Shown here: positions 5,348 to 64,000 of the stretch, piece after piece
Layout of the letters: the number at the start of each line of letters is the position of its first letter
Position numbering within the stretch: position 1 is the stretch's first letter
NCBI RefSeq assembly: GCF_001458395.1
Contig: NZ_CYSR01000040.1
Location: forward strand, 1 to 64,000
Direction: 5' to 3'
Source: Leisingera aquaemixtae
Lineage (GTDB): Bacteria > Pseudomonadota > Alphaproteobacteria > Rhodobacterales > Rhodobacteraceae
Length of the DNA stretch: 64,000 nucleotides
Notes under the pieces: model-generated
What the model saw: the letters and a program-made list of their open reading frames with translations, nothing else
Databases searched by the model: none
Told to the model about the DNA's origin: nothing
Program-made: the position numbers and the translations under genes

Positions 5348-7051
5348 TTACTTGATGCGGTACCAGTCAGCTGCGTTCCACAGCTCGCTGTCCCACACGT
5401 TCAGGTCAACGCCGCCCAGCGTGTTGGAATGCGCCGACAGGCGGCCGCGGTGCACCAGCGGGATCATGCCGCCGTTTTCGACCATGATGTCGTTGAGGCG
5501 GCGGCCGATTTCGGCGCGGGCCTCAAGGCCGGCAGTCTTGGTCAGCTCGGCGTGCAGCTGGTCGAACTCCTCGTTGCAGAAGCGCGAGATGTTCTCACCC
5601 TGCCACTGGGATTCCGGTTTCGGTGCCTTGTCGCACAGGCCGTTGGCCAGGTAGGCCTGCGGGTCGGTGCCGTCGAAGTTGTTGGCGTACATTTCCACGT
5701 CCGCATAGAACTTCTGGAAGGTGTCAGGCGAGCCCGGGTCGCCGCCGAAGAACACCGAGGCGTTGATGTTGCGCAGCTCGGATTCGATGCCGATCTGGCC
5801 CCACCACTCCTTGATCAGCGCCTGGAAGTCCTGGCGCACGGCGTTGGTCGAGGTCTGGTACAGGATCTTCATCGGCTTGCCGTCCGGGGTCTCCCGCACG
5901 CCGTCGCCATTGGTGTCCTTATAGCCGGCTTCCTCCAGCATCGCCTTGGCGCCTTCGATGTCCTGAGTGGAGCAGTCAAAGGTGTCAGACGCAAAGGCCG
6001 CAGGCGCAGGCACCCAGTTGCAGCCGACCTTGCCGGCCTTGCCATAGCCGATTTCCACCAGCAGCGGGCGGTCGATGGCCATCGACATCGCCTTGTAGAC
6101 GGCCGGGTCCTTCAGGAACGGATGCGGATGCTTGGCGGTGGAGCGCTCGCCCTCCGGCAGGTCCGGCGACGGGTCGGTCTGGTTCAGCATGATGCGTTCC
6201 ACCAGCGAGCCGAAGCCCGCAACCGGCTTGCCCTTGCCGCCTGCTTCCATCTGCGCGATCACTTCCGGCGCCAGCTGCAGGTTCCAGGCATAGTCGAACT
6301 CGCCGGTTTCCATCACCGCGCGGCCGGCCGCGGTGGCATCGCCGCCGCCCTTGAACAGCACCTTCGCAAACGCGGGCTTGGCCGGATCGCGGTAGTTGGG
6401 GTTGGCCGACATGGTGATCACGTCGTTCGGCTTGAACTCATCCACCACAAACGGACCGGTGCCGATCGGGGCAAAGTTGGCGTCGGTGCATTCCGGCGCC
6501 CGGGCGCCCATGCAGTTCTCGAACTGCGCTTTCTGCAGGATCGGGCTTTCACCGCCGGAGAACGGGCCATAGGGGAAGGGGGTCGGCTTGTCGAAGGTGA
6601 CCTTGACGGTCATGTCGTCCACCAGCTCGACGGAGGTGACACCCTCGAACTTGGTCAGCTGCGCGCAGCCGCCTTCGGGGTGCATACAGTAATCGGCGGT
6701 GAACTTCACGTCATGAGCGGTGAAGTCGGTGCCATCGGACCACTTGATGCCGGGTGCGATCTTCCAGGTGATCGAAGTCAGGTCTTCGCTGACGCCGCCG
6801 TTCTCAACTGTCGGGATCTCGGTTGCCAGATAGGGCACCATGTTGCCCTCGGGGTCATAGCGGGCCAGCGGCTCAATCACCAGCGAGGCGGCCTGGATGT
6901 CCTTGGTGCCGCCGGACAGGAACGGGTTCAGGATCGACGGCGCCTGCCAGTAGATGATGTTGACCTGGCCATCGGACCCGCGCTCAGCAAAGGCTGCCGG
7001 CGCCAGGGCCGCCGTGGCAACGGCCCCCATCAATAGGGATTTGAGTTTCAT
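5348..7051 (-). CDS. ABC transporter substrate-binding protein, family 5 (peptide/opine type)
   Basis: A 567-residue periplasmic binding protein of the SBP_bac_5 (DppA/OppA) family that delivers cargo to the two downstream permeases. It has a classical Sec signal peptide (MKLKSLLMGAVATAALAPA) with predicted cleavage after AFA. The mature protein begins around QVNIIYWQAPSILNPFLSGG, typical of the family. Length and the mid-protein PSPDLPEGERSTAKHPHPFL region fit the larger opine/peptide subgroup. ATG 7051 is supported by AGGAG a short distance upstream. The permeases follow on the same strand, while the ATPase gene diverges on the other side. Ligand is unknown. Confidence 0.92.
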   Translation of the reverse strand: MKLKSLLMGAVATAALAPAAFAERGSDGQVNIIYWQAPSILNPFLSGGTKDIQAASLVIEPLARYDPEGNMVPYLATEIPTVENGGVSEDLTSITWKIAPGIKWSDGTDFTAHDVKFTADYCMHPEGGCAQLTKFEGVTSVELVDDMTVKVTFDKPTPFPYGPFSGGESPILQKAQFENCMGARAPECTDANFAPIGTGPFVVDEFKPNDVITMSANPNYRDPAKPAFAKVLFKGGGDATAAGRAVMETGEFDYAWNLQLAPEVIAQMEAGGKGKPVAGFGSLVERIMLNQTDPSPDLPEGERSTAKHPHPFLKDPAVYKAMSMAIDRPLLVEIGYGKAGKVGCNWVPAPAAFASDTFDCSTQDIEGAKAMLEEAGYKDTNGDGVRETPDGKPMKILYQTSTNAVRQDFQALIKEWWGQIGIESELRNINASVFFGGDPGSPDTFQKFYADVEMYANNFDGTDPQAYLANGLCDKAPKPESQWQGENISRFCNEEFDQLHAELTKTAGLEARAEIGRRLNDIMVENGGMIPLVHRGRLSAHSNTLGGVDLNVWDSELWNAADWYRIK

Positions 7052-7393
7052 CACACTCTCCTTGTCGGACACGTTTTGTGTCTTTTTGTTGGCCGGACCG
7101 CAGCGGGCCCGGAGATTTGCCGCATGGCTGCGGAAGGGTCGCAATCGCACCTGCGCGCAGGCCGGAATTGCAGGCATTAAGCACTCTTAACATGTTGCCG
7201 GACAGACCGGCGCATGACGCTCTGCAGGCAACCACGGGGGTATCGAAAACCACTTCCCGGTAAATTGCAAATTCCAATTTTAAAAACCCTATGCATTATT
7301 TGCATGAGCATTTTTGTGCAAAGTAGAGTTTACTCCGGATGCTGGGGCCGCCATCCGCGGCTGGCCCGGGGAATGAAAGATAGGGAAGCCGTC
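7052..7393. promoter_or_regulatory. Divergent control region between binding-protein and ATPase genes
   Basis: This 342-base gap holds no convincing gene. It must carry the promoters for the leftward binding-protein/permease operon and the rightward ATPase operon. The stretch 7260-7330 is conspicuously AT-rich. It contains the inverted repeat ATGCA-TTATT-TGCAT (7291-7305) and further TTGCA/TGCAA words nearby, compatible with a regulator site. Close to the leftward start is a second inverted repeat, GACAC-GTTTT-GTGTC (7068-7082). I could not place -35/-10 elements with confidence. Confidence 0.45.
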
Positions 7394-9214
7394 ATGCTGG
7401 ACAACGCCATTGCGTCCATTCGAAACCTGCGTGTTGAGTTTCAGACCAAGGATGGCCCGGTGGTCGGGGTGGAGAACGTCTCCTTTGACGTGAGCCCGGG
7501 CGAAACCGTCTGCATCGTTGGGGAATCCGGCTCCGGCAAATCGGTTTCCTCGCTGTCGCTGATGCGCCTGGTGGAATTCGGCGGCGGCGAGATTGCGGGC
7601 GGCGAGCTGCTGTTCAACCGGCGGGAGGGCGGCGAGACAAACCTGGCGGACACCGAACAGGATATGATGAAGCAGATCCGCGGCAATGAGATCGGCATGA
7701 TCTTCCAGGAGCCGATGACCGCGCTCAATCCGGTGTTCACCGTCGGCCGCCAGCTGACCGAGGGCCTGCGCATCCACAAGAACATGTCCAAGGCCCAGGC
7801 CGAGGAACGCGCGCTGGAGCTGCTGCGCCAGGTCCGCATCCCGGAACCGGAACGCCGCCTGCGGCAGTACCCGCATGAACTCTCCGGCGGCATGCGCCAG
7901 CGTGTGGTGATCGCCATGGCAATGGCCTGCGAGCCGCGGCTGCTGATTGCGGACGAACCCACAACCGCGCTGGATGTGACCATCCAGGCGGAGATCCTGG
8001 CCCTGATGGACCGCCTCAAGCGCGAGACCGGGACGGCGGTGATGTTCATCACCCACGACATGGCGGTGGTCGCCCAGATGGCCGACCGCGTGGTCGTCAT
8101 GTACCGCGGCAACAAGGTTGAGGAAGGCCCCGTCGAAGAAATCTTCGAGAACCCCAAGCACGACTACACCAAGGCATTGCTGGCGGCGGTGCCGAAGCTG
8201 GGCGAGATGCGCGGCAAGCACTACCCCGAGCCGATGAAGCTGATGGGGGTCGAGGACCAGAAGATCGAGCCGATCAAGGGCACCGACGAGGTGCTTCTGG
8301 ACGTGCAGAACCTGACCACCCGCTTTCCGGTCAAGGGCGGCCTGCTGCGCCGCACCATTTCCAACGTGCACGCGGTCGAGGACGTGTCCTTCAAGGTCCT
8401 CAAGGGCCAGACCCTGTCGCTGGTCGGGGAATCCGGCTGCGGCAAATCCACCGCGGGCCGCTCGATCCTGCGGCTGGTGGAGCCGCTGTCGGGCAAGGTG
8501 GATTTCGAAGGCCGCGACGTTCTGAAATTCAGCGCCTCCCAGATGCACAAGGCGCGCCAGGACATGCAGATGATCTTCCAGGATCCCTTTGCGTCCCTGA
8601 ACCCGCAGATGCAGCTGATCGACCAGGTGGCAGAGCCGCTCCGCAACTACGGGCTGGCCAAGGGATCGGAGCTGCACGACCGCGTCGCCAGCCTGTTCGA
8701 CCGCGTCCACCTGCCGCGCAGCTTCATGCGCCGCTACCCGCACGAGATGTCCGGCGGCCAGCGCCAGCGCATCGCCATTGCCCGCGCCCTGGCGCTGAAC
8801 CCCAAGCTGATCGTCGCGGATGAGGCCGTCTCGGCGCTCGACGTGTCGGTGCAGGCGCAGGTCTTGAACCTGATGATGGAGCTGCAGGCGGAACTGGGCC
8901 TTTCCTTCCTGTTTATCAGCCACGACATGGCGGTGGTGGAGCGCGTCAGCCATCAGGTCGGCGTCATGTACCTGGGCCGCATCGTTGAGATCGGCCCCCG
9001 CGACCGCGTGTTCGAGAACCCGCTGCACGCCTATACCCAGGCGCTGATGAAGGCGGTCCCGATCGCCGACCCGCGACAGCGCAAGTCGGAGAAAGAGCTG
9101 AACTTCAAACCGATCCCGTCGCCGATCCATGAGGTCGGCTATCAGCCGGAGCCGTCGGAGTATCTGGAACTGGAGCCCGGCCATTTCGTGCTGACCACCG
9201 ACAGCGGCTACTGA
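7394..9214 (+). CDS. Fused double ATP-binding subunit of the peptide-type ABC transporter (DppD-DppF fusion)
   Basis: A 606-residue cytoplasmic protein containing two complete ABC ATPase domains in tandem, equivalent to DppD and DppF joined. Domain 1 has Walker A GESGSGKS (43-50), Q-loop FQEP, signature LSGGMRQR (163-170) and Walker B LLIADEP (183-189). Domain 2 has Walker A GESGCGKS (345-352), signature MSGGQRQR and Walker B LIVADEAVSALD. Each domain is followed by the oligopeptide-transporter C-terminal region (ENPKHDYTKALLAAVP and ENPLHAYTQALMKAVP). The start ATG 7394 follows AGGGAAG; longer in-frame forms lack a ribosome site. It is divergent from the other transporter genes and leads an operon with an SDR, an ArgE-like gene and perhaps the M20 genes. 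Confidence 0.94.
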   Translation: MLDNAIASIRNLRVEFQTKDGPVVGVENVSFDVSPGETVCIVGESGSGKSVSSLSLMRLVEFGGGEIAGGELLFNRREGGETNLADTEQDMMKQIRGNEIGMIFQEPMTALNPVFTVGRQLTEGLRIHKNMSKAQAEERALELLRQVRIPEPERRLRQYPHELSGGMRQRVVIAMAMACEPRLLIADEPTTALDVTIQAEILALMDRLKRETGTAVMFITHDMAVVAQMADRVVVMYRGNKVEEGPVEEIFENPKHDYTKALLAAVPKLGEMRGKHYPEPMKLMGVEDQKIEPIKGTDEVLLDVQNLTTRFPVKGGLLRRTISNVHAVEDVSFKVLKGQTLSLVGESGCGKSTAGRSILRLVEPLSGKVDFEGRDVLKFSASQMHKARQDMQMIFQDPFASLNPQMQLIDQVAEPLRNYGLAKGSELHDRVASLFDRVHLPRSFMRRYPHEMSGGQRQRIAIARALALNPKLIVADEAVSALDVSVQAQVLNLMMELQAELGLSFLFISHDMAVVERVSHQVGVMYLGRIVEIGPRDRVFENPLHAYTQALMKAVPIADPRQRKSEKELNFKPIPSPIHEVGYQPEPSEYLELEPGHFVLTTDSGY

Positions 9215-9216
9215 TC

Positions 9217-9924
9217 ATGATCCCGACACCGCAGGACCGGCCTGTTGCCTTGGTGACAGGGGCTGCCCGCGGGATCGGGCAGGCCATCGCTCAGGCGCTG
9301 GCCGCAGACTACTCCGTTGCGATAACCCATTTGGAAACCCGGCCTGAGAACGGCTCTTTTCTGGCCGTACGCGCAGATTTCCGTGACCCGGAAGCTCCGG
9401 CAATGGTGGTGGAGCGCACGCTGCAGCACTATGGCCGGATAGATCTGATCGTTAATAATGCCGGTGCTTTCGCATCGGAGGGTCCGGAAGTGTTCGATAG
9501 CTCTGCCCTGCGGGAAATGTTCGATGTAAACCTCTTTGCCGCTCAGGGCTTGCTGGCTGCGGCGCTTCCACATCTTCGGCCTGGTGCCTCGGTGGTCTCG
9601 ATTTCTTCGGTGAATGCAACTTTGCCTCCGGCTGGAGCCGCGCTGTTCGGGGCCAGCAAGGCGGCGCTGGAGCTGTGGACCCGCGGCATGGCCAAAGAGC
9701 TGGGACCGCGCGGTATCCGGGTCAATGCCGTGGCTCCGGGGGCGGTCAATGATCCGCATAACCCAAGGCCGCCGGAGCTGACGGCTGAATTCGAGGAGTT
9801 GACTGCGCTGGGCCGTTTGCCTTCACCATCCGATATCGCAGCGGCGGTTAGCTTTCTCGCAGGGAGCGGAGCAAGCTTCGTAACCGGCGAGGTGCTTACC
9901 GTCTCAGGGGGCTACAGATTATGA
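9217..9924 (+). CDS. SDR family oxidoreductase (catalytic Tyr replaced by Phe)
   Basis: A 235-residue short-chain dehydrogenase/reductase fold protein. The cofactor motif TGAARGIG is at 14-21, NNAG at 80-83, and the catalytic Ser region SISS ends at 131. The expected YxxxK motif reads FGASK: Phe144 replaces the catalytic Tyr while Lys148 is kept. It is therefore either a non-canonical enzyme or a non-redox paralogue. It starts two bases after the ATPase stop and overlaps the next gene by four bases (ATGA), so it is embedded in the transporter/deacylase operon. Substrate is unknown. Confidence 0.85.
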   Translation: MIPTPQDRPVALVTGAARGIGQAIAQALAADYSVAITHLETRPENGSFLAVRADFRDPEAPAMVVERTLQHYGRIDLIVNNAGAFASEGPEVFDSSALREMFDVNLFAAQGLLAAALPHLRPGASVVSISSVNATLPPAGAALFGASKAALELWTRGMAKELGPRGIRVNAVAPGAVNDPHNPRPPELTAEFEELTALGRLPSPSDIAAAVSFLAGSGASFVTGEVLTVSGGYRL

Positions 9925-55585: not shown

Positions 55586-56989
55586 TTAGCTGGCGCGGCG
55601 TTCGGCAAAGCTGAGCGCGATGAAGCTAGGCAGGTGGTCGCCCATGCCAACCACGGCCTTGTCGTCGCGCTTGCTGTATTTCCCGCGCGAGGACGCGCGC
55701 TCGGGCTTCTGCGCAGCCTTGTCCTCCTTGCGGGGGGCACGCGATCCGGTGTCTGCCTTGGCAGTGTCCTGCTTGGCTGTGTCCGGCTTCGCAGCGTCCG
55801 GCTTGGCAGACCGGGAGGGCTTTTCCTGTTTCGGTTCGGGCTTGACCGGGTTGTCCAGGCGCTTGATCTCCTTCTGGATCAGCTTCTCCACTGCATCCAG
55901 CGCCTTTTCGTCGCGCGGAGTGCAGATGGTGATCGCCTTGCCCTCGCGGCCGGCACGGCCGGTGCGGCCGATCCGGTGGACGTAATCCTCGGCGTGGCCA
56001 GGCACGTCGAAATTGAACACATGGCTGACGCTGGGCACGTCCAGGCCGCGTGCGGCCACATCCGAGGCCACCAGGATACGCAATGACCCCTCACGGAAGG
56101 AATCCAGCGTCCTGGTCCGCTGGCTCTGGTCCAGGTCGCCATGGATTGCGGCGGCGTCATAGCCGTATTTCTTGAGCGATTTCGCGCAGATATCCACATC
56201 CGTCTTGCGGTTGCAGAAGATGATGCCGTTGGTCAGCTTGTCGCCTTCGCCGTCGATCAGGGCGCGCAGAACCGTGCGCTTCTCGCTGCCCTCGCGGTCG
56301 CGGCGCGACGGTTTGACTTGCACCACGGCCTGTTCGATGGTTTCCGAGGCAGTCGCCTGGCGCGCCACCTCGATACGGGCCGGACCCGACAGGAAGGTGT
56401 TGGTGATCCGCTCGATCTCCGGCGCCATGGTGGCGGAGAAGAACAGCGTCTGGCGGGTAAACGGCGTCAGCGAGAAGATGCGTTCGATATCCGGGATGAA
56501 GCCCATGTCGAGCATCCGGTCGGCCTCATCCACCACCATGATCTGCACGCCGGTGAGCAGGAGCTTGCCGCGCTCGAAATGGTCCAGCAACCGGCCCGGG
56601 GTCGCGATCAGCACATCGACGCCCTTGTCGATCAGCGCGTCCTGCTCCTTGAAGGACACACCGCCAATCAGCAGCGCCTTGGTGAGCTTCACATGCTTGG
56701 CATAGGTGTCGAAGTTTTCCGCCACCTGAGCGGCCAGCTCGCGGGTGGGGCACAGCACCAGGCTGCGCGGCATCCGGGCCCGGGCGCGGCCGCGGGCCAG
56801 AAGGGTGATCATCGGCAGCGTGAAGGACGCGGTCTTGCCGGTGCCGGTTTGGGCGATTCCCAGAACATCGCGCCCTTCCAGCGCAGGCGGGATTGCCCCG
56901 GCCTGGATCGGCGTTGGGGTTTCATAACCAGCTTCCTCAATAGCTTTGAGGACCTTGGGATTCAGGTTCAGATCGGTAAATTTTGTCAT
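55586..56989 (-). CDS. rhlE: DEAD-box ATP-dependent RNA helicase, RhlE type
   Basis: A 467-residue RNA helicase. The Q-motif region GYETPTPIQ, Walker A AQTGTGKT (46-53), DEAD in VVDEADRMLDMG, SAT in FFSATMAPE, and HRIGRTGRAGREG are intact. After the helicase core (about residue 375) a tail is rich in Lys, Ala, Asp and Pro (repeated AKPDTAKQDTAKADT), suited to non-specific RNA binding. A leader of about 90 bases precedes the ATG, as is common for cold-responsive helicases. Acts in ribosome maturation or RNA decay, and lies close to RNase J. Confidence 0.93.
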   Translation of the reverse strand: MTKFTDLNLNPKVLKAIEEAGYETPTPIQAGAIPPALEGRDVLGIAQTGTGKTASFTLPMITLLARGRARARMPRSLVLCPTRELAAQVAENFDTYAKHVKLTKALLIGGVSFKEQDALIDKGVDVLIATPGRLLDHFERGKLLLTGVQIMVVDEADRMLDMGFIPDIERIFSLTPFTRQTLFFSATMAPEIERITNTFLSGPARIEVARQATASETIEQAVVQVKPSRRDREGSEKRTVLRALIDGEGDKLTNGIIFCNRKTDVDICAKSLKKYGYDAAAIHGDLDQSQRTRTLDSFREGSLRILVASDVAARGLDVPSVSHVFNFDVPGHAEDYVHRIGRTGRAGREGKAITICTPRDEKALDAVEKLIQKEIKRLDNPVKPEPKQEKPSRSAKPDAAKPDTAKQDTAKADTGSRAPRKEDKAAQKPERASSRGKYSKRDDKAVVGMGDHLPSFIALSFAERRAS

Positions 56990-57088
56990 CTGTGTCCGTC
57001 ATTGCGGACACTGACCTGGCCCGCGCGTGTGTGTTCCAGCCGGATCCGCAAATGGTCATGCGGGATGGCAGCTTCCGGCTCGTTGCGG

Positions 57089-57117
57089 GGCATATCAAAA
57101 TCCTGGGCGATCGTCAA
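57089..57117 (-). promoter_or_regulatory. Possible promoter of the RhlE-type helicase gene
   Basis: On the minus strand TTGACG and TATGCC are separated by 17 bases, which would leave a leader of roughly 90 bases. The -10 is imperfect. The remainder of the 56990-57257 gap holds no convincing gene. Confidence 0.35.
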
Positions 57118-57257
57118 TTAATGCTGGATTTTACAGTATTTTCGCCTGTGAACTATGCAGAAAGGAAACAAATCAGCCAGAATCCGGGCAGTGTTCTGCC
57201 AATTGCGGTGCTGCGGCCGGGCCGGCGAATCTGTTGGCGGCCGCAGCAGGACGCAGG

Positions 57258-57287
57258 AAAAACGCCCGGAGGGCCGGGCGTTTTTTG
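57258..57287. terminator. Bidirectional terminator at the end of prfC
   Basis: A perfect 12-bp stem (AAAAACGCCCGG with CCGGGCGTTTTT) and an AGGG loop directly abut the prfC stop codon. Confidence 0.85.
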
Positions 57288-58895
57288 TTAAACCATCATT
57301 TCCTTGGTCGCGGTCAGTTTCAGATCGGGGTAGTCGCGCACGACCCGGTCGATGTCCCACTGCAGCCGCGTCAGATAGACGATGTCGCCGTCGTGGTCAT
57401 GGGCGATGTGCTGCTTGTTGGCGTTGATGAACTTGTCCACCGCCGCCTTGTCGCCGCTGACCCAGCGTGCGCTGGTGAACTGGCTTGCCTCAAACCGCAC
57501 CGGCAGGCCGTATTCCATCTCGATCCGGCTCGCCAGCACCTCGAACTGCAGCTGGCCGACCACGCCGACGATGAAGCCGGAGCCGATCGAGGGTTTAAAC
57601 ACCTTGGCCGCGCCTTCCTCGGCAAACTGCATCAGTGCCTTTTCCAGGTGCTTGGCTTTCATCGGATCACCCGCGCGCACCGTCTGCAGCAGCTCCGGCG
57701 CAAAGGAGGGGATGCCGGTCACCCGGATCGCCTCGCCCTCGGTCAGCGTGTCGCCGATGCGCAGCTGGCCGTGGTTCGGGATGCCGATGATGTCGCCAGC
57801 CCAGGCTTCCTCGGCCAGCTCCCGGTCGGAGGCCAGGAACAGCACCGGGTTCGACACCGCCATCGGCTTCTTGGTGCGCACATGCGTCAGCTTCATGCCG
57901 CGCTTGAAATGGCCCGAGGCCACCCGCACAAAGGCCACCCGGTCGCGGTGCTTGGGGTCCATGTTGGCCTGCACCTTGAACACGAAACCGGCGACCTTCT
58001 TTTCTTCCGGGCTCACCTGGCGCGGCTCAGCCGACTGGGGCTGCGGCTCGGGGCCGTATTTGCCGATCCCGTCCATCAGCTCCTTGACGCCAAAGGAGTT
58101 GATCGCGGAGCCGAACCAGATCGGGGTCATGTGGCCTTCAAGCACCGACTGCGGGTCCAGCGCGGGCAGCAGCTCGCGCGCCATTTCGACCTCTTCCAGC
58201 AGCTTCTCAAGCAGGTGCTCCGGCACGTGTTCGGCCAGCTTGGGGTCGTCCAACCCGTTGATCTGGATACTTTCCGCCACCTTGTTACGGTCGGCGCGGT
58301 CCATCAGCTCCAGCCGGTCGCGCAGCATGTCGTAACAGCCGATGAAATCGCGGCCCACCCCGATGGGCCAGCTGGCGGGGGTCACGTCGATCGCCAGCAT
58401 CTCTTGGATTTCATCAATGATCTCAAAGGTGTCCCGGCTCTCGCGGTCCATCTTGTTACAGAAGGTCAGGATCGGCAGGTCGCGCAGGCGGCAGACCTCG
58501 AACAGCTTCTGGGTCTGGCTTTCCACGCCCTTGGCGCCGTCGATCACCATCACCGCCGCGTCCACCGCCGTGAGCGTGCGATAGGTGTCCTCGGAGAAAT
58601 CCGAGTGGCCCGGCGTGTCCACCAGGTTGAAGCGAAAGCCGCTGAAATCGAACGACATTGCGGATGCCGAGACGGAAATGCCGCGGTCCTTCTCCATCTG
58701 CATGAAGTCCGAGCGCGTGCGCCGCGCCTCGCCCTTGGCGCGCACCTGTCCGGCCATCTGAATCGCACCGCCATAGAGCAGGAACTTTTCAGTCAGCGTG
58801 GTCTTGCCGGCGTCCGGGTGCGAAATGATCGCAAAGGTCCGGCGCCGCGCAATTTCGGGCGGCAGTTCGGGGCGGTTTGCAGCGGTGTCCAACAT
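57288..58895 (-). CDS. prfC: Peptide chain release factor 3
   Basis: A 535-residue translational GTPase that removes RF1/RF2 from the ribosome after peptide release. G1 is HPDAGKTT (26-33), G2 lies in RGISVSASAM, G3 is DTPGHSDFSEDTY and G4 is CNKMDRE. The RF3-specific domains II and III follow, with KFINANKQHIAHDHDGD near the C-terminus. ATG 58895 is the family start; an upstream extension of 18 residues has no ribosome site. The second triple-GGTGCAC element lies about 45 bases upstream in the same orientation. Confidence 0.96.
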   Translation of the reverse strand: MLDTAANRPELPPEIARRRTFAIISHPDAGKTTLTEKFLLYGGAIQMAGQVRAKGEARRTRSDFMQMEKDRGISVSASAMSFDFSGFRFNLVDTPGHSDFSEDTYRTLTAVDAAVMVIDGAKGVESQTQKLFEVCRLRDLPILTFCNKMDRESRDTFEIIDEIQEMLAIDVTPASWPIGVGRDFIGCYDMLRDRLELMDRADRNKVAESIQINGLDDPKLAEHVPEHLLEKLLEEVEMARELLPALDPQSVLEGHMTPIWFGSAINSFGVKELMDGIGKYGPEPQPQSAEPRQVSPEEKKVAGFVFKVQANMDPKHRDRVAFVRVASGHFKRGMKLTHVRTKKPMAVSNPVLFLASDRELAEEAWAGDIIGIPNHGQLRIGDTLTEGEAIRVTGIPSFAPELLQTVRAGDPMKAKHLEKALMQFAEEGAAKVFKPSIGSGFIVGVVGQLQFEVLASRIEMEYGLPVRFEASQFTSARWVSGDKAAVDKFINANKQHIAHDHDGDIVYLTRLQWDIDRVVRDYPDLKLTATKEMMV

Positions 58896-58938
58896 GAGCG
58901 CGCGTATAGCAGGAATGCCGGAAGAGGCAAGAAAAACA

Positions 58939-58981
58939 GGGGGTGCCACGCGTGCACCCCCCCGTACACCCCCTGTGCACC
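58939..58981 (-). repeat. Triple GGTGCAC element, copy 2
   Basis: Read on the minus strand it contains GGTGCAC, GGTGTAC and GGTGCAC followed by GCGTGGCACCCCC. It aligns end to end with the element at 11139-11180. It lies upstream of prfC, pointing the same way. Confidence 0.6.
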
Positions 58982-59121
58982 GGGCGGCTGCCCTTTGAAA
59001 AGGTGTTGCGTTTCCTGCGCACGCCCCGCTTGCCGGGACTTAACCGGACTAGGGCAGGGTTGGGATCAGCGCGGGAGTGCCGCCCCGCTGCGAACCGCCG
59101 CCATCAAGGGGACGCCACGGG

Positions 59122-59484
59122 ATGCCCAGCAAGCAATATTACGACAATGAGATGCAGCTGGAGCTGGACGCGCTGCAGCAGAAGCTGCGCCGCGACTGGC
59201 TGGACAAGAGCCTGCCGGAGGATTGGGACGGCATCCTGAGCTGGGAGCGGCTGGACAAGCCCAAGACCCGGGTGACGATCCGGCTGGACGCGGACATGGT
59301 CAAATGGTTCCGCAAGCTGGGCCCGAACTATGGCCGCCGCATCAACTCGATCCTGCGGATCTACTGGCTGGCGCTGCTGGCCGGGCATATCCAGGCCCAT
59401 GACAAGGACAAAACGGTCCTGCGCATTGCCGCGCGGGCGCGGGAGATGCAGCGCGACCTGCAGAGGCGCGGGGTGGGGGAGTGA
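59122..59484 (+). CDS. BrnA-like antitoxin family protein without a toxin partner
   Basis: A 120-residue protein. The C-terminal half matches BrnA antitoxins, which carry a ribbon-helix-helix-like DNA-binding domain: TRVTIRLDADMVKWFRKLG and YGRRINSILRIYW. The N-terminal half (QYYDNEMQLELDALQQKLRR) is a charged helix replacing the usual short N-terminus. No BrnT toxin gene is found on either side; the upstream gene is prfC on the other strand. It is GC-rich like the chromosome and so does not belong to the adjoining low-GC island. Either an orphan DNA-binding regulator or a remnant of a toxin-antitoxin pair. Confidence 0.78.
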   Translation: MPSKQYYDNEMQLELDALQQKLRRDWLDKSLPEDWDGILSWERLDKPKTRVTIRLDADMVKWFRKLGPNYGRRINSILRIYWLALLAGHIQAHDKDKTVLRIAARAREMQRDLQRRGVGE

Positions 59485-59592
59485 GGGGGCGTCTAACTTA
59501 TTGAAAAACAGCTATAAGTGTATTGGGGGCTGGGCTTGCAAGCGCAGCAGGAACGTGCAATTAGCACTCTGCGTTCCTTAGGAGGTTGGGCG

Positions 59593-60627
59593 ATGACAAA
59601 AATTGTGTCTCTGTACAATAATAAGGGTGGCGTTGCGAAAACAACAACTCTGTTCAACATGTCGGTGCTGCTTTCCCAGCGAGGCAAGAAAGTGTTGCTT
59701 GTTGACTGCGACCCTCAATGCAATTGTACAGAATTGTTCTTCTGCTCGAGTGAAGATTTTGAAGATCCGGAGGTTCCCCTGCCTGGAACCAGTATTTACG
59801 AAGCACTTCGCCCTCGATTCGACGGTGATGCTTCTAGGGTTGATGCGCAAAAAGTGTCGTTGTCTGAGTCCTCGCTATACGACAATCTTTTCATTCTGAG
59901 AGGTGACATAAATTTCTCAAGAGCGGAGCAGTATTTTTCGAATGCCATCGCGCAGGCTGTAACGGAGTCAATACACGACAAAAACACCTACGCTGTTATG
60001 TCGAGGCTGCTGAGGGATCTTGGGGCATACCATGGGTTCGATTACATATTGTGTGATGTAGGCCCCAGCGCTGGTTCGATTACCAGGATGACAATTCTAT
60101 CTTGTGATGGAATTTTTGTCCCTACTGCGCCTGACAGGTTTTCGTTTCAAGCTGTTCAGGGGATGGGGGCAATTATGGGTGAGTGGTTGCAACGGCATGA
60201 AATGATTACGTCTACCTTTGCGCCATACGGAATCGATGCTTCCTTTTCCACCCCGGCATTCTATGGGGCAATTGTGAACAATTACAAGATTCATAAGGTG
60301 GGCAAAATGAAGGGTTCCTATCTGAAGTGGGAGGCAATGATTAGGGACAGTTTTATAGAAAACTTACTGTCTGGCGATGGGCGGAAGCTCCAAGTTAGTA
60401 ATCCGGAGTTAATGAAAAATCCGTTTGTTGCTTCCATTAGGGATGTTGGTCCTACAGCGCCGGTTGCACAAATTGTTGGAAAGGCGATCTTTGATATCGC
60501 CCAGAAAGATACGGCGCACGCAACACCTAGCGGAGATTTCTATCGAGGGTCTGTTTGGGCCGGTTGGGTTGAACGAATGGCTGAATATAAGCGTCAGATC
60601 GAAAGTATTGTTGAGGCAATTGTATGA
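59593..60627 (+). CDS. ParA/MinD-type P-loop ATPase of a low-GC accessory island
   Basis: A 344-residue ATPase of the ParA/Soj (AAA_31-like) group. The deviant Walker A is KGGVAKTTT (11-19) with the signature Lys11, the A' motif is VDCDPQCN (Asp38, Asp40), and Walker B is DYILCDVGPSAG (Asp155). The C-terminal third (about 230-344) is longer than in chromosomal ParA and carries YLKWEAMIRDSF and FYRGSVWAGWVERM segments without a known domain. A perfect AGGAGG precedes ATG 59593. No parB or parS was seen. Base composition is far lower in GC than neighbouring genes and codon use is AT-rich, indicating recent transfer. The stop overlaps the next gene (ATGA), so the two act together. Confidence 0.88.
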   Translation: MTKIVSLYNNKGGVAKTTTLFNMSVLLSQRGKKVLLVDCDPQCNCTELFFCSSEDFEDPEVPLPGTSIYEALRPRFDGDASRVDAQKVSLSESSLYDNLFILRGDINFSRAEQYFSNAIAQAVTESIHDKNTYAVMSRLLRDLGAYHGFDYILCDVGPSAGSITRMTILSCDGIFVPTAPDRFSFQAVQGMGAIMGEWLQRHEMITSTFAPYGIDASFSTPAFYGAIVNNYKIHKVGKMKGSYLKWEAMIRDSFIENLLSGDGRKLQVSNPELMKNPFVASIRDVGPTAPVAQIVGKAIFDIAQKDTAHATPSGDFYRGSVWAGWVERMAEYKRQIESIVEAIV

Positions 60628-61316
60628 GTGGAGCAGCTACGCCACACGCATTCGTATCGCTTCTTGATGTTCTGGGATACCGGAACAAGATACACAGTGA
60701 TCGGGAGAACGGACGAGAAGAATTTAAAGATAATTTACTATCTTCCCTTTCAGTTCTTAGCTCTATTAATGAAATGGAGATGAGTTACCAGGCGATCAGT
60801 GACACAATTATTTTCTCAGCAATTGGAAGCTCTGGGTTTGAAAAGTTTTTGAAGCACAATTCTGATGTGCACCTTTCTTTCTTGAGGAATGGTCTATTTG
60901 TGCGTGGTGGAATTTCGTTCGCTCCCCACTTTAAATCTGGTTCCCTTACTTATAGCCACGCTCTGCCGATTTCCTATGAAATAGAGCAGAGGCAAGCGGT
61001 TTATCCAAGGATTGTAATAGACAGGAATATCATTGAAATGTTGAAGCCGGGCGGATTGCTTGCGGACCAATCTGCATCAATTACTTCACAGGAATTGATT
61101 TGTGAGGAAAATGGTGTATTTTTCCTAAACTTTGTTGGCAGTGATCTGAAAGATTACTACGATCTTTCACGTGAAATATATGAAAGCGATAGGGAGTTTC
61201 TGCAGGGCAAAGAGCATGAGCTTGCAAAGCATAGATGGCTTCAGAATTTCATTGTTTCAATGTCGGGCAAAAAATTGAATCCCTATATTGCACCTGTTCG
61301 GGTTTTTAAGTCCTGA
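60624..61316 (+). CDS. Uncharacterised protein with class III nucleotidyl-cyclase-like landmarks
   Basis: A 230-residue cytosolic protein with no signal or membrane segment. The N-terminal HAFVSLLDVLGYRNKI resembles the metal-binding FxDIxGF turn of class III cyclases (Asp15). AISDTIIFSA places a second acidic residue (Asp60) 45 residues later, close to the spacing between the two metal aspartates in that superfamily. VRGGISFA (94-100) and ISYEIEQRQAVYPRIVID (116-133) continue the resemblance. Activity is not established: the canonical transition-state Asn/Arg pair is not obvious. The gene is low in GC and overlaps the ParA-type gene by four bases. Confidence 0.7.
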   Translation: MSGAATPHAFVSLLDVLGYRNKIHSDRENGREEFKDNLLSSLSVLSSINEMEMSYQAISDTIIFSAIGSSGFEKFLKHNSDVHLSFLRNGLFVRGGISFAPHFKSGSLTYSHALPISYEIEQRQAVYPRIVIDRNIIEMLKPGGLLADQSASITSQELICEENGVFFLNFVGSDLKDYYDLSREIYESDREFLQGKEHELAKHRWLQNFIVSMSGKKLNPYIAPVRVFKS

Positions 61317-61355
61317 AGGAGGATTTCCTTAACTCCGGCCGTCTGAATGGAAGTT

Positions 61356-62381
61356 TTACCGCAACGACGCCCGCTTCAAGAGCCCCACCGCATCCGGCCT
61401 GTTCAGCAGCGACCGGCTCACATCCAGCCCATGCGCGCCGCGCTTGTGGGCGGCGGGCAGGGGGGCGTGCGGGTGTCCTGCGCGCGTGATCCAGATATCC
61501 TCCGGCAGCGCCGGGCGGGTGACCGGGTCGAGGAAAGTGCTCTCGGCGGCGATGCCCTCGGCGTAGATGATGTGGTGGCGGTCGAACAGGATCTGGAAGT
61601 AATCGGCAAAGCCGCCGTCCAGCACCACCACGCTGTCGCCGTTCACCAGGTCGCGGGCGCGGACCAGGATCTCGGGCGCGCCGGCGCCGATCTCGTCGCT
61701 GCGCTGGTAGACCATCAGCCGGTGGCCGGGGCTGACGATCAGGTCGCGGGCGTTGTTCAGGGCGCCCTTGCGGATCAGGACCGGGGCCAGATCGCCGACC
61801 GCGCGCAGGGTGGACTGGCCGACCCAGCGCACCTCCTGGATGCCGTCGTCGCGGGTCAGGACGCGGTCGCCGGGGCGCATGTCCTCGATCGGGCGCTGCG
61901 CGCCGGTGGACAGCGTGATGCGGGTGCCGCGGGTGAAGGAGACGCAGGCCGATTGCGCCAGCTTGCGCCGGGCGGGCTCGCGCACCGCCTTGACCAGCGT
62001 GTAGGGCACCTGCGGCTGCAGGGGCGCCAGCGGCACCAGGTAGATGGCGGCGATATAGCCCTCGGCATCGGCCTCGACCAGCACCAGGATCTCGGTGTTG
62101 GGGCCGCGGTCGGGCATCAGGGTCAGCAGGCAATCCAGGTGCAGCGCGGCGCCGGGGGTGCCAAGCGCGGAGGCCTCCGCCACAGAGAGGCTGCCGTCGT
62201 GACCGGCGGCGATGCCCAGCCGCTGCGGCGCGGAGGCGGCGTCCAGCATGTAGACGTCATCCAGCACCAGATCCTCAAGCACGCCCAGCGGGTCGCCGGC
62301 GTTGGCACCGTATTCGACGCGGAAATGCTCGGCCAGGCAGGCCTGGACGGAGGTGTGGCTGGCAGTCAAGGTCTGTCCCAT
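61356..62381 (-). CDS. Hint-domain protein (Hint_2 type)
   Basis: A 341-residue protein. Residues 1-140 form a beta-rich N-terminal domain without a recognised family. Residues 145-300 are a Hint (hedgehog/intein) domain: Cys146 in SACVSFTRGTRI is the presumed splicing or cleavage nucleophile, PIEDMRPGDRVLTRDDG and EVRWVGQSTL follow, and His220 is in VSPGHRLMV. The C-terminal His-Asn and an extein are missing, so autocleavage rather than splicing would be expected. Such proteins are frequent and unexplained in roseobacters. ATG 62381 lacks a clear ribosome site; GTG 62405 is an alternative. GC content is high, unlike the island next to it. Confidence 0.85.
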   Translation of the reverse strand: MGQTLTASHTSVQACLAEHFRVEYGANAGDPLGVLEDLVLDDVYMLDAASAPQRLGIAAGHDGSLSVAEASALGTPGAALHLDCLLTLMPDRGPNTEILVLVEADAEGYIAAIYLVPLAPLQPQVPYTLVKAVREPARRKLAQSACVSFTRGTRITLSTGAQRPIEDMRPGDRVLTRDDGIQEVRWVGQSTLRAVGDLAPVLIRKGALNNARDLIVSPGHRLMVYQRSDEIGAGAPEILVRARDLVNGDSVVVLDGGFADYFQILFDRHHIIYAEGIAAESTFLDPVTRPALPEDIWITRAGHPHAPLPAAHKRGAHGLDVSRSLLNRPDAVGLLKRASLR

Positions 62382-62585
62382 AAGCGGCGTGTGTTTCGTT
62401 TCCACTGTGAACCCGCGCGGGGCGCTGTCCAATAGATCTGCTGCAGGAATGTGGCAGAAAGCGGTCCGGAAGGGGCTGATTTTCCGGCGGTTTGACGATT
62501 GGCGCGGAGGGCGCGGGGCTGGTCTTCGCCGGGCAGGCGGTGCAAGCTCTGCGGCGACTGAAAAGATTCCCGAGGGAGGACGGCA

Positions 62586-63365
62586 ATGGATCTGGGTATT
62601 TCGGGCAAGCGCGCGCTGGTTTGCGCCAGCAGCAAGGGGCTGGGGCTGGGCTGCGCCGAGGCGCTGGCGGAGGCGGGTGTGAACCTGGTGATGAACGCCC
62701 GCGGGGCAGAGGCATTGGAGGCGTCGGCGCAGGCGATCCGCGACGCCTATGGCGTCAATGTGGTAACAGTGGCCGCCGATGTGACCACGCCGGAGGGCCA
62801 GCAGAAGGTGCTGGAGGCGGCTGAGGGCGTGGACATCCTGGTCACCAATGCGGGCGGGCCGCCGCCGGGCCTGTGGACCGACTGGGACCGCGAGGATTTC
62901 ATCAAGGCGCTGGACGCCAACATGCTGACCCCGATTGCGCTGATCAAGGCGCTGGTCCCGGGCATGATCGAGCGCGGCTGGGGCCGGGTGGTCAATATCA
63001 CCTCGGTCTCGGTCAAGTCGCCGGTCCCGGTGCTGGGGCTGTCGAACGCGGCGCGGGCGGGCCTCACCGGCTATGTCGCGGGCACTGCGCGGCAGGTGGC
63101 GGGCAAGGGCGTCATTATGAACAACCTGCAGCCGGGCCTCCATGCCACCGACCGGGCCGAAGCGCTGGACGGCGGCGCGGCCAAGGCGCAGGGCATTTCG
63201 GTGGAGGACGCCAAGAAGCAGCGCTGCGCCACCATCCCGGCGGGCCGCTATGGCACCCGTCAGGAGTTCGGCGCCACCTGCGCCTTCATGTGCTCGCAGC
63301 ATGCGGGCTTCATGGTCGGGCAGAACATCCTGCTGGACGGCGGCGCCACCAACACCACGATGTAA
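62586..63365 (+). CDS. SDR family oxidoreductase lacking the classical Tyr/Lys pair
   Basis: A 259-residue Rossmann-fold SDR. The cofactor loop is ASSKGLGLG (14-22) instead of TGxxxGxG, and TNAGGPPPG replaces NNAG. Ser140 (NITSVSVKSP) occupies the catalytic Ser position, but at the YxxxK site the protein reads LSNAARAG: Ser153/Arg157 (or Asn154) stand where Tyr and Lys belong. This belongs to a known divergent branch annotated as 3-oxoacyl-ACP reductase-like whose chemistry is unclear. GGGAGGA precedes the ATG. The AlkC-like gene follows 10 bases later. Confidence 0.88.
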   Translation: MDLGISGKRALVCASSKGLGLGCAEALAEAGVNLVMNARGAEALEASAQAIRDAYGVNVVTVAADVTTPEGQQKVLEAAEGVDILVTNAGGPPPGLWTDWDREDFIKALDANMLTPIALIKALVPGMIERGWGRVVNITSVSVKSPVPVLGLSNAARAGLTGYVAGTARQVAGKGVIMNNLQPGLHATDRAEALDGGAAKAQGISVEDAKKQRCATIPAGRYGTRQEFGATCAFMCSQHAGFMVGQNILLDGGATNTTM

Positions 63366-63375
63366 GGAGCGCCGC

Positions 63376-64000
63376 ATGGCCAGCGGGTTTTCCCTGAAGG
63401 ACCAGCTGTTCAACCGCGGCAAGGTCCGCTATCTGGCGGGCCTTTTTTCCGCGGCTGAGGCTGGGTTTGATGCAGAGGCTTTTGAGGCCCAGGTGATGGC
63501 GGAGCTGCCGGCGCTGGAGCTGAAGCAGCGAATCGCGCTGATTGCGCAGGTGCTGGCGGACCATCTGCCCGCGGCGCTGCCGGACGCCGCACCTGTTCTT
63601 TTGCGGGCGCTGCCGCCGCCGCTGGATCCCGGCAAGACGGACGATGATTTCGGCGATTTCATCTTTGCCCCCTTGGGGGAGTATGTCGCCGCGCGGGGCC
63701 TTGAGGCGCACCGGGATCTGTCGCTGGACATGCTGGAGGAAATCACCCAGCGGTTTTCGATGGAATGGGCGATCCGGCCTTTCCTGAACCGCTGGCCGGA
63801 TGAGGTGCTGGCACGGATGCAGGACTGGGCTGGGCACAGCAGCTATCACGTGCGGCGGCTGGTCAGCGAGGGCACCCGCCCGCGGCTGCCCTGGGGCGAG
63901 TCGGTTGGCCTTGCGCTCGACGCCCCGCTGCCGCTTTTGGACCGGCTGCATGGCGATGGCGCCCGCTTTGTCACCCGTTCGGTCGCCAATCATCTGAACG
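63376..64000 (+). CDS. DNA alkylation repair protein, AlkC-like (3' end beyond the window)
   Basis: The first 208 residues are present, open at the right edge. The start MASGFSLKDQLFNRGKVRYL and the later DWAGHSSYHVRRLVSEGTRP and RLPWGESVGLALD match the AlkC branch of HEAT-like alkyl-purine DNA glycosylases. The conserved SSYHVRRLxSEG(T/S)RPRLPW block is intact. It probably forms an operon with the preceding SDR gene. This is the second alkylation-repair HEAT protein in the window. Length and C-terminus cannot be judged. Confidence 0.85.
   Translation, partial: MASGFSLKDQLFNRGKVRYLAGLFSAAEAGFDAEAFEAQVMAELPALELKQRIALIAQVLADHLPAALPDAAPVLLRALPPPLDPGKTDDDFGDFIFAPLGEYVAARGLEAHRDLSLDMLEEITQRFSMEWAIRPFLNRWPDEVLARMQDWAGHSSYHVRRLVSEGTRPRLPWGESVGLALDAPLPLLDRLHGDGARFVTRSVANHLN

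Follow-up and report, generated by a model that had tools for sequence, protein, structure and literature searches.

The described system closest to the locus reported here is a dyad in which a HEPN protein of the MAE_18760 family is encoded together with a ParA/Soj-like ATPase that was proposed to act as its antitoxin (Anantharaman et al., 2013; PMC3710099). A cyclase in a two-gene unit is also known from Pycsar, which combines a pyrimidine cyclase with a cyclic pyrimidine receptor (PMC11224242), and the uncharacterized bacterial DUF2652 proteins have been assigned to the class III cyclase fold (PMC4886424, 2016). Other conflict systems contain cyclic nucleoside monophosphate (cNMP) cyclase domains, some of them inactive, and MinD/ParA-like domains (PMC7159879, 2020), while ribbon-helix-helix and ParA genes have been listed as neighbours within larger associations (PMC2701414, 2009). 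Partner exchange among toxin–antitoxin pairs has been mapped (PMC10440598); the whole word 'ParA' is absent from that text, and ParA likewise does not occur in PMC13092281. Here we describe two genes from a 64 000 nt stretch of the Leisingera aquaemixtae genome (contig NZ_CYSR01000040.1, positions 1 to 64 000, hereafter the window), which encode a ParA/MinD-like deviant Walker A ATPase of 344 aa (59593..60627, + strand) and a 230 aa protein with the predicted fold of a nucleotide cyclase (60624..61316, + strand).

Like the ParA/Soj-HEPN dyad, this pair is a two-gene module of a ParA/Soj-like ATPase and a small partner, but the partner there is an HEPN RNase (PMC3710099) and here has a cyclase fold, so that the Rx4-6H signature of HEPN partners does not apply to it, and the window ParA belongs to a clade of its own (support 99). 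Pycsar resembles it in encoding a cyclase-fold protein together with one other protein, although a cyclic-pyrimidine receptor stands beside the cyclase there (PMC11224242) and a ParA-like ATPase does so in the 29 pairs known here. DUF2652 is likewise a group of uncharacterized cyclase-fold proteins (PMC4886424), but the 29 paired members between them matched seven Pfam families at E-values up to 0.1, and DUF2652 is none of these. The initial annotation of this DNA, made from the letters alone, knew of no described system with exactly this pair; we too found no paper on it in the open-licence literature (subscription papers and preprints lie mostly outside that body), where the 2013 dyad is a close cousin (PMC3710099).

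Comparison of the related loci indicates that the two genes are one mobile functional unit, real and conserved. Relatives were collected by scanning viral contigs and one genome per species with ParA alignments, and the best 80 of at least 560 confirmed genome relatives were used. These 80 loci include 27 ParAs of the window clade, 25 of them full length (>330 bits with a seven-row profile), and a cyclase-fold gene lies directly 3′ of ParA in all 25 full-length loci, so that the unbiased pairing figure is 25/27; in one of the two other loci (L075) no partner is visible, and the locus runs off its contig. Once copies from genomes, viral contigs and plasmids are combined and deduplicated, 28 distinct pairs remain in addition to that of the window; they were picked for having both genes, ParA comes first in each, and three of them (L039, L041 and L042) are known from viral contigs only. 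According to the record titles these pairs come from Pseudomonadota, Bacillota, Thermodesulfobacteriota, Verrucomicrobiota and a Methanosarcinales metagenome-assembled genome (MAG), the contig of which is possibly misbinned. Start and stop are −8 to +14 nt apart in 28/29 pairs, with a TTG taken as the start in L061; the closest ATG of L066 comes 56 nt later, although its open frame extends across the ParA stop. Pairwise distances of ParA and partner are strongly correlated (Mantel r 0.923, none of 9999 permutations as high). Dropped before these counts were L001 and L002 (the window itself), L057 and L131–L135 (repeat fetches), L055 and L070 (identical to pairs L038 and L040) and L100, whose cyclase-like match is on the other strand and whose ParA is HEPN-paired. 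The functional link that the initial annotation had supposed, and the co-occurrence as neighbours in unrelated genomes that it had proposed as a check, are both borne out by these figures. An accidental juxtaposition of two unrelated genes is next to inconceivable against 28 more tight pairs, a single ParA clade and a distance correlation of 0.92, and was ruled out by the co-occurrence.

The relationships among the ParAs were examined in a tree of 100 rows, built by a quick method with support from the Shimodaira–Hasegawa-like approximate likelihood ratio test (SH-aLRT) alone; L064, L075, L142, L165, ParA matches below 140 bits and duplicates were left out. The cyclase-paired ParAs form one clade of 29 rows (SH-aLRT 99), to which the ParA–HEPN pairs are neighbours. 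HEPN-paired ParAs occupy 32 rows with two changes, the RelA/SpoT-paired ones form one group of four rows (SH-aLRT 98), and once the 34 'other' rows are set aside three changes explain the partners, the minimum possible for four states. The HEPN and RelA/SpoT labels come from profiles built on 17 and four of these same partners; a Pfam search of ten partners gave HEPN_RiboL-PSP for six (three above the cut-off and three below), RelA_SpoT for two, SIR2_2 for one and no family for one, and an Rx4H motif is present in 32/32 HEPN partners (31 RNxxxH, one RDxxxH). These comparisons show related ParA clades with a putative HEPN RNase-like, RelA/SpoT-like or, in one case, SIR2-like partner in the same downstream slot, and the window pair would be a variant of the ParA–effector dyad with a new partner family. 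The HEPN pairs found here are likely to be the 2013 dyad; the best Pfam match of their partners is to the RiboL-PSP HEPN model.

Several observations were made beside these counts. The congener G018 carries a distant ParA-like gene that overlaps a SIR2-like gene (L008, 1459-3356), a candidate ParA–SIR2 dyad; this SIR2_2-paired ParA is on a long branch and its placement is unsure. At 6980-9893 of Xanthomonas hortorum locus L104 there are ParA-like, DDE transposase and RelA/SpoT-like genes in that order, as though a dyad had been split by an insertion sequence. The viral contigs L143–L164 encode ParA-like proteins (about 360 aa) without a recognized partner, and in three of those inspected (L154, L157 and L163) the upstream gene is repressor-like by eye.

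The window ParA matches AAA_31 (2e-27) and the phage family phrog_164 (2.8e-37), and among solved structures its best sequence match is DIP2308 (3pg5; 1.8e-21). The structure predicted by AlphaFold2 (mean predicted local distance difference test, pLDDT, 93.2) also has 3pg5 as its nearest fold, followed by McdA and Soj/ParA. Within the deviant Walker A motif KGGVAKTT (59623..59646, + strand) residues K11, G12, G13, V14, K16, T17 and T18 are present in 29/29 clade members, as is Asp155 at the Walker B position (60055..60057, + strand), and D40 is invariant in 29/29 alongside K11, K16 and D155. We take K11 to be the signature Lys, K16 the Walker A Lys, D40 the A′ Asp and D155 the Walker B Asp, so that the deviant Walker A Lys pair and the A′ and B Asp residues of ParA/MinD-type ATPases are found in every member. 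Since Walker A starts at residue 11 there is probably no room for an N-terminal helix-turn-helix domain. What it has in common with the ParA/Soj partition ATPases and DIP2308 is the deviant Walker A ATPase; solved Soj chains are some 80-100 aa shorter than the window type, and unlike the partition ATPases the window ParA is tied to a cyclase-fold gene and has no ParB_N match on its contig. The genome holds five ParB_N matches, all of them off the window's contig, in keeping with the earlier statement that no parB is nearby. At the other pair loci the 3′ gene is the cyclase-fold gene and not ParB; the upstream genes were not checked singly and parS was not searched for.

For the second protein, the label 'cyclase-like' in the initial annotation agrees with the predicted fold, although no sequence family matches. 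All 50 Foldseek and all 50 VIA-align matches listed for this fold are class III nucleotide cyclases, and in BFVD a single fold match had an E-value below 0.001 (3.9e-5, root mean square deviation 11.7). No Pfam or NCBIfam family lies above its cut-off, no PADLOC model matches at E-values up to 1, and a search of PDB sequences with a 29-row profile of the family found nothing up to E 1; the protein does match phrog_23933, a family with no assigned function (3.8e-20). An alignment of its profile with that of the cyclases has a low probability (2.6 %, E-value 0.018), yet is in register over the domain, and the profile–profile match to a set of 11 cyclase domains from this genome is weak. In this low-probability register both metal-binding positions of the class III cyclases are Asp in 29/29 paired members, the first being Asp15 (60666..60668, + strand; also in 29/30 solo relatives, considered below) and the second Asp60 (60801..60803, + strand; 30/30 solo). 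The columns of the transition-state Asn and Arg, mapped through the same alignment, correspond to P115 (I 16, T 4, A 4, P 3, V 2) and E119 (mixed), and neither residue is conserved. Nor are the base-selecting Lys and Asp/Glu, whose columns, likewise mapped and placed by a residue spacing that we assume to hold, are mixed at 56 (Q 8, K 6, T 5 and others) and F/I/L/V/T at 108. The protein differs from class III cyclases such as Rv1264, Rv1900c, Ma1120 and soluble guanylate cyclase in this lack of conservation at the Asn/Arg and Lys/Asp positions, and further in additional C-terminal helices, in other conserved residues and in having no Pfam match. Some established cyclases lack the Asn (PMC4886424). 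R94, G95 and E121 (and nearly so K202 and W205) are conserved even in solo relatives and lie outside the cyclase residue set. The alignments thus show a putative enzyme that keeps the metal Asp positions and differs in other conserved residues. Two further positions mark the ParA-paired members, His102 (60927..60929, + strand; 29/29 paired, 2/30 solo) and Ser111 (60954..60956, + strand; 29/29 paired, 1/30 solo, with Gly in the other 29).

The cyclase-fold family extends beyond the pairs and was found in 14/385 genomes of the class and 13/398 of the phylum (29-row profile, E-values up to 1e-8; the window's own genome is counted in both). Among the other loci fetched, ParA is upstream only in L211 and L224, the only two that exceed 200 bits, and L211 and the UR115 plasmid record probably belong to one genome. 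The next cyclase-fold locus, at 133 bits, and the lower ones have no ParA within about 1.5 kb, and seven plasmid solo loci have no such ParA within 5–6 kb on each side. This solo family (L027–L037 except L030, and L212–L236 except L224) occurs on plasmids and chromosomes. Its members mostly keep D15, D60, R94, G95, E121, K202 and W205 and have Gly at position 111; the solo residue counts (n=30) include the protein of L100 and exclude L034, L218, L223, L224, L235 and matches of 40 bits or less. Family members among the listed plasmid rows are called 'hypothetical protein' or have no annotation.

The pair lies in an AT-rich block (59486..61355) between a BrnA-like gene (BrnA antitoxin, PF14384, 2.2e-11), which is itself preceded by that for release factor 3, and, on the opposite strand, a gene with a Hint domain (PF13403, 7.8e-40); the BrnA-like and Hint-domain neighbours, the ATGA stop/start overlap (60624..60627, + strand) and the AGGAGG ribosome-binding site (59580..59585, + strand; 7 bases 5′ of the ATG at 59593) are all as the initial annotation had described them. 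Its count of about 47–48 % G+C, made in two 60-base stretches of each gene, agrees with the ParA gene (about 0.47-0.48 in 500-base windows), and the cyclase-fold gene is more AT-rich than that count (0.41-0.45); the windows immediately flanking the pair have 0.64-0.74, the pair overall has 44.5 % G+C against 65.5 % in the flanks, and the adjacent BrnA-like gene is, unlike the pair, GC-rich. Because the pair is at least 3 G+C points below its flanks in 28/29 loci (by a mean of 15 points over all 29), the AT-rich look is a trait of the module. No integrase was seen, as had been stated, in a look by eye at the open reading frames (ORFs) listed for 56000-64000, and scans found nothing promoter-like 5′ of the ParA start, nothing terminator-like 3′ of the pair and no direct repeat resembling two insertion ends around it. 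The cyclase-fold gene is single copy, with no second match across the 4.6 Mb genome, and the five other ParA matches in the genome are all distant (26-47 % identity in alignments that span part of the protein).

Among congeners the pair occupies a variable spot. DNA of the Hint gene to the right of the pair occurs in 21/21 genomes of the genus, and the 20 other genomes have only distant ParA matches (best E-value 1.4e-25, 30 % identity). In G003 and G004 the release factor 3 and Hint genes are separated by a hybrid histidine kinase gene of about 538 codons; G020 has a BrnA-like gene (match over residues 27-110) and then, at the pair's site, an AT-rich gene with DUF7946/DUF7947; G001 and G014 have other genes beside the Hint gene. 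We note that the DUF7946/DUF7947 gene of G020, about 400 codons long (L207, 4361-5584), lies behind the BrnA-like gene. A clean empty site between the brnA-like and Hint genes, which the initial annotation had suggested looking for in close relatives, was not present in the five congener loci examined. Its description of a compact transferred module is nevertheless supported by the lack of close ParA matches in 20 other genomes of the genus, the variable site, the closest ParA relatives, which are from Acidovorax (75 %), Rugamonas and Paracidovorax, the several phyla represented and the occurrence of pairs on five IMG/VR viral contigs. Two scans of viral contigs with ParA found pairs in 5/13 and 5/44 loci, the same five contigs each time; two of these correspond to the genome loci L055 and L070, and the pair-bearing contigs are probably proviruses. 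The cyclase-fold protein gave no matches when viral contigs were scanned with it, nothing in named phages matches that of the window (E-values up to 0.01) or of L041 (up to 1e-4), and E. coli genomes gave no blastn match to the L041 gene. One copy of the pair is on a 0.8 Mb plasmid. Four Pseudomonas and two sphingomonad loci, together 6/28 of the pair loci, have the ParA start 5-367 nt downstream of nrdB, the gene for the small chain of ribonucleotide reductase, which was named by Pfam in L059, L061 and L065 and by similarity to these in L058, L067 and L076. Since the nrdB-linked ParAs are spread over four positions of the tree, the site after nrdB is suggested to be a recurrent insertion spot, likely a hot spot.

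The surroundings of the pairs gave mixed signals on defence genes. A PADLOC scan at E 1e-10 matched 162 models among 149 neighbour ORFs, hand-picked as nearest from 273, against 11 among 148 of the 149 control ORFs drawn from seven other genomes, of which four belong to the family, two to the class and one to the phylum; the models matched among the neighbours include PDC-S05, PDC-S36, mREase_IV and MTase_II. Of 20 neighbour proteins scanned singly at E 1e-20, only four matched a defence model, in the three loci L063, L071 and L074, and two of these proteins, from one type I restriction–modification operon, account for 56 model matches. The defence thresholds differ, being 1e-10 for the pooled scan and 1e-20 for single proteins.

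We tentatively propose, with somewhat less than even confidence, that ParA is a nucleotide-driven regulator and its cyclase-fold partner a growth-stopping effector, the two acting as one mobile functional unit. The assignment of regulator and effector is unproven and rests on partner exchange and fold, and the control or positioning of the partner by the ATPase, possibly in defence, that the initial annotation had supposed is likewise a proposal; the partner is taken as effector because ParA is constant across the tree while the toxin-like partner changes. The ParA-like protein would be a nucleotide-driven regulator or sensor that holds its partner silent and releases it upon a trigger, of which an invading phage or plasmid is the likeliest. 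The partner, perhaps a metal-dependent enzyme acting on nucleotides, would then make a signal nucleotide or spoil the nucleoside triphosphate pool and stop growth, filling the slot taken by an RNase or alarmone-synthetase-like enzyme in related systems. By analogy with the toxin-like partners of related ParAs, the pair resembles a growth-arrest or anti-virus module in a new form. Several observations weigh against this proposal. The canonical Asn/Arg and Lys/Asp residues are not conserved and the cyclase-fold protein may be inactive or perform other chemistry; solo relatives without ParA nearby mean that the whole cyclase-fold family does not require ParA. The clade ParA of L064 (a Rhodoferax MAG), matched over residues 1-214 only, has no partner, and 34/100 ParAs in the tree, many from viral contigs, have no recognized partner, so that partnership is not universal in the wider ParA family. 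The excess of defence models in the pooled scan was not borne out in the proteins scanned singly, and the window's own neighbours are the release factor 3, BrnA-like and Hint-domain genes.

Three other explanations share some of this evidence. The cyclase-fold protein could belong to a non-toxic signalling pair, making a (non-canonical) cyclic nucleotide while ParA gates it or sets its position, much as cargo is placed by ATPases of the Min/Mcd type; we consider this improbable, given that the base-selecting and transition-state positions are not conserved, that the related partners are RNase-like and alarmone-synthetase-like enzymes and that the distribution is patchy and mobile. The same loss of canonical catalytic positions would suit a reversal of roles, in which the cyclase-fold protein is a dead nucleotide sensor (a pseudo-cyclase) and ParA an effector that disturbs chromosome or division dynamics, and MinD/ParA-like effector domains and inactive cNMP cyclases are both reported from other conflict systems (PMC7159879). 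A ParA that stays constant as its partner switches among toxin-like enzymes argues the other way, as do R94, G95 and E121 (with K202 and W205 nearly so), whose retention in solo relatives suggests an active site, and we regard the reversal as quite unlikely. The ParA family itself, the phrog_164 match and the copies on viral contigs and on a plasmid would be expected of a partition or maintenance cassette in which the cyclase-fold protein stands in for ParB and keeps a prophage, plasmid or island. Such a cassette seems very unlikely and was rejected as the probable reading on the lack of a ParB_N match on the contig, the enzyme fold of the partner and the lack of a recurrent neighbour beyond nrdB (in an all-against-all comparison of the 149 neighbour ORFs the largest group, of five, was nrdB, found in six loci after further comparison).

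If ParA is the regulator and the cyclase-fold protein the effector, as we prefer, a broader and distinctly more doubtful possibility is that a family of ParA/MinD-like ATPases serves generally to switch growth-arrest enzymes on and off, the enzymes being exchangeable and including HEPN RNase, RelA/SpoT-like and SIR2-like ones and a new cyclase-fold enzyme with a kept metal site and changed chemistry, of which His102 and Ser111 would mark the ParA-controlled form. The pair offers a testable two-gene unit for the role of ParA-type ATPases beyond partition and positioning, and for that of a wide unannotated cyclase-fold family. Should the partner make a signal, the pair would be a nucleotide-signal system; should it be an effector, a cyclase-derived enzyme would join the toxin-like partners of ParA dyads.
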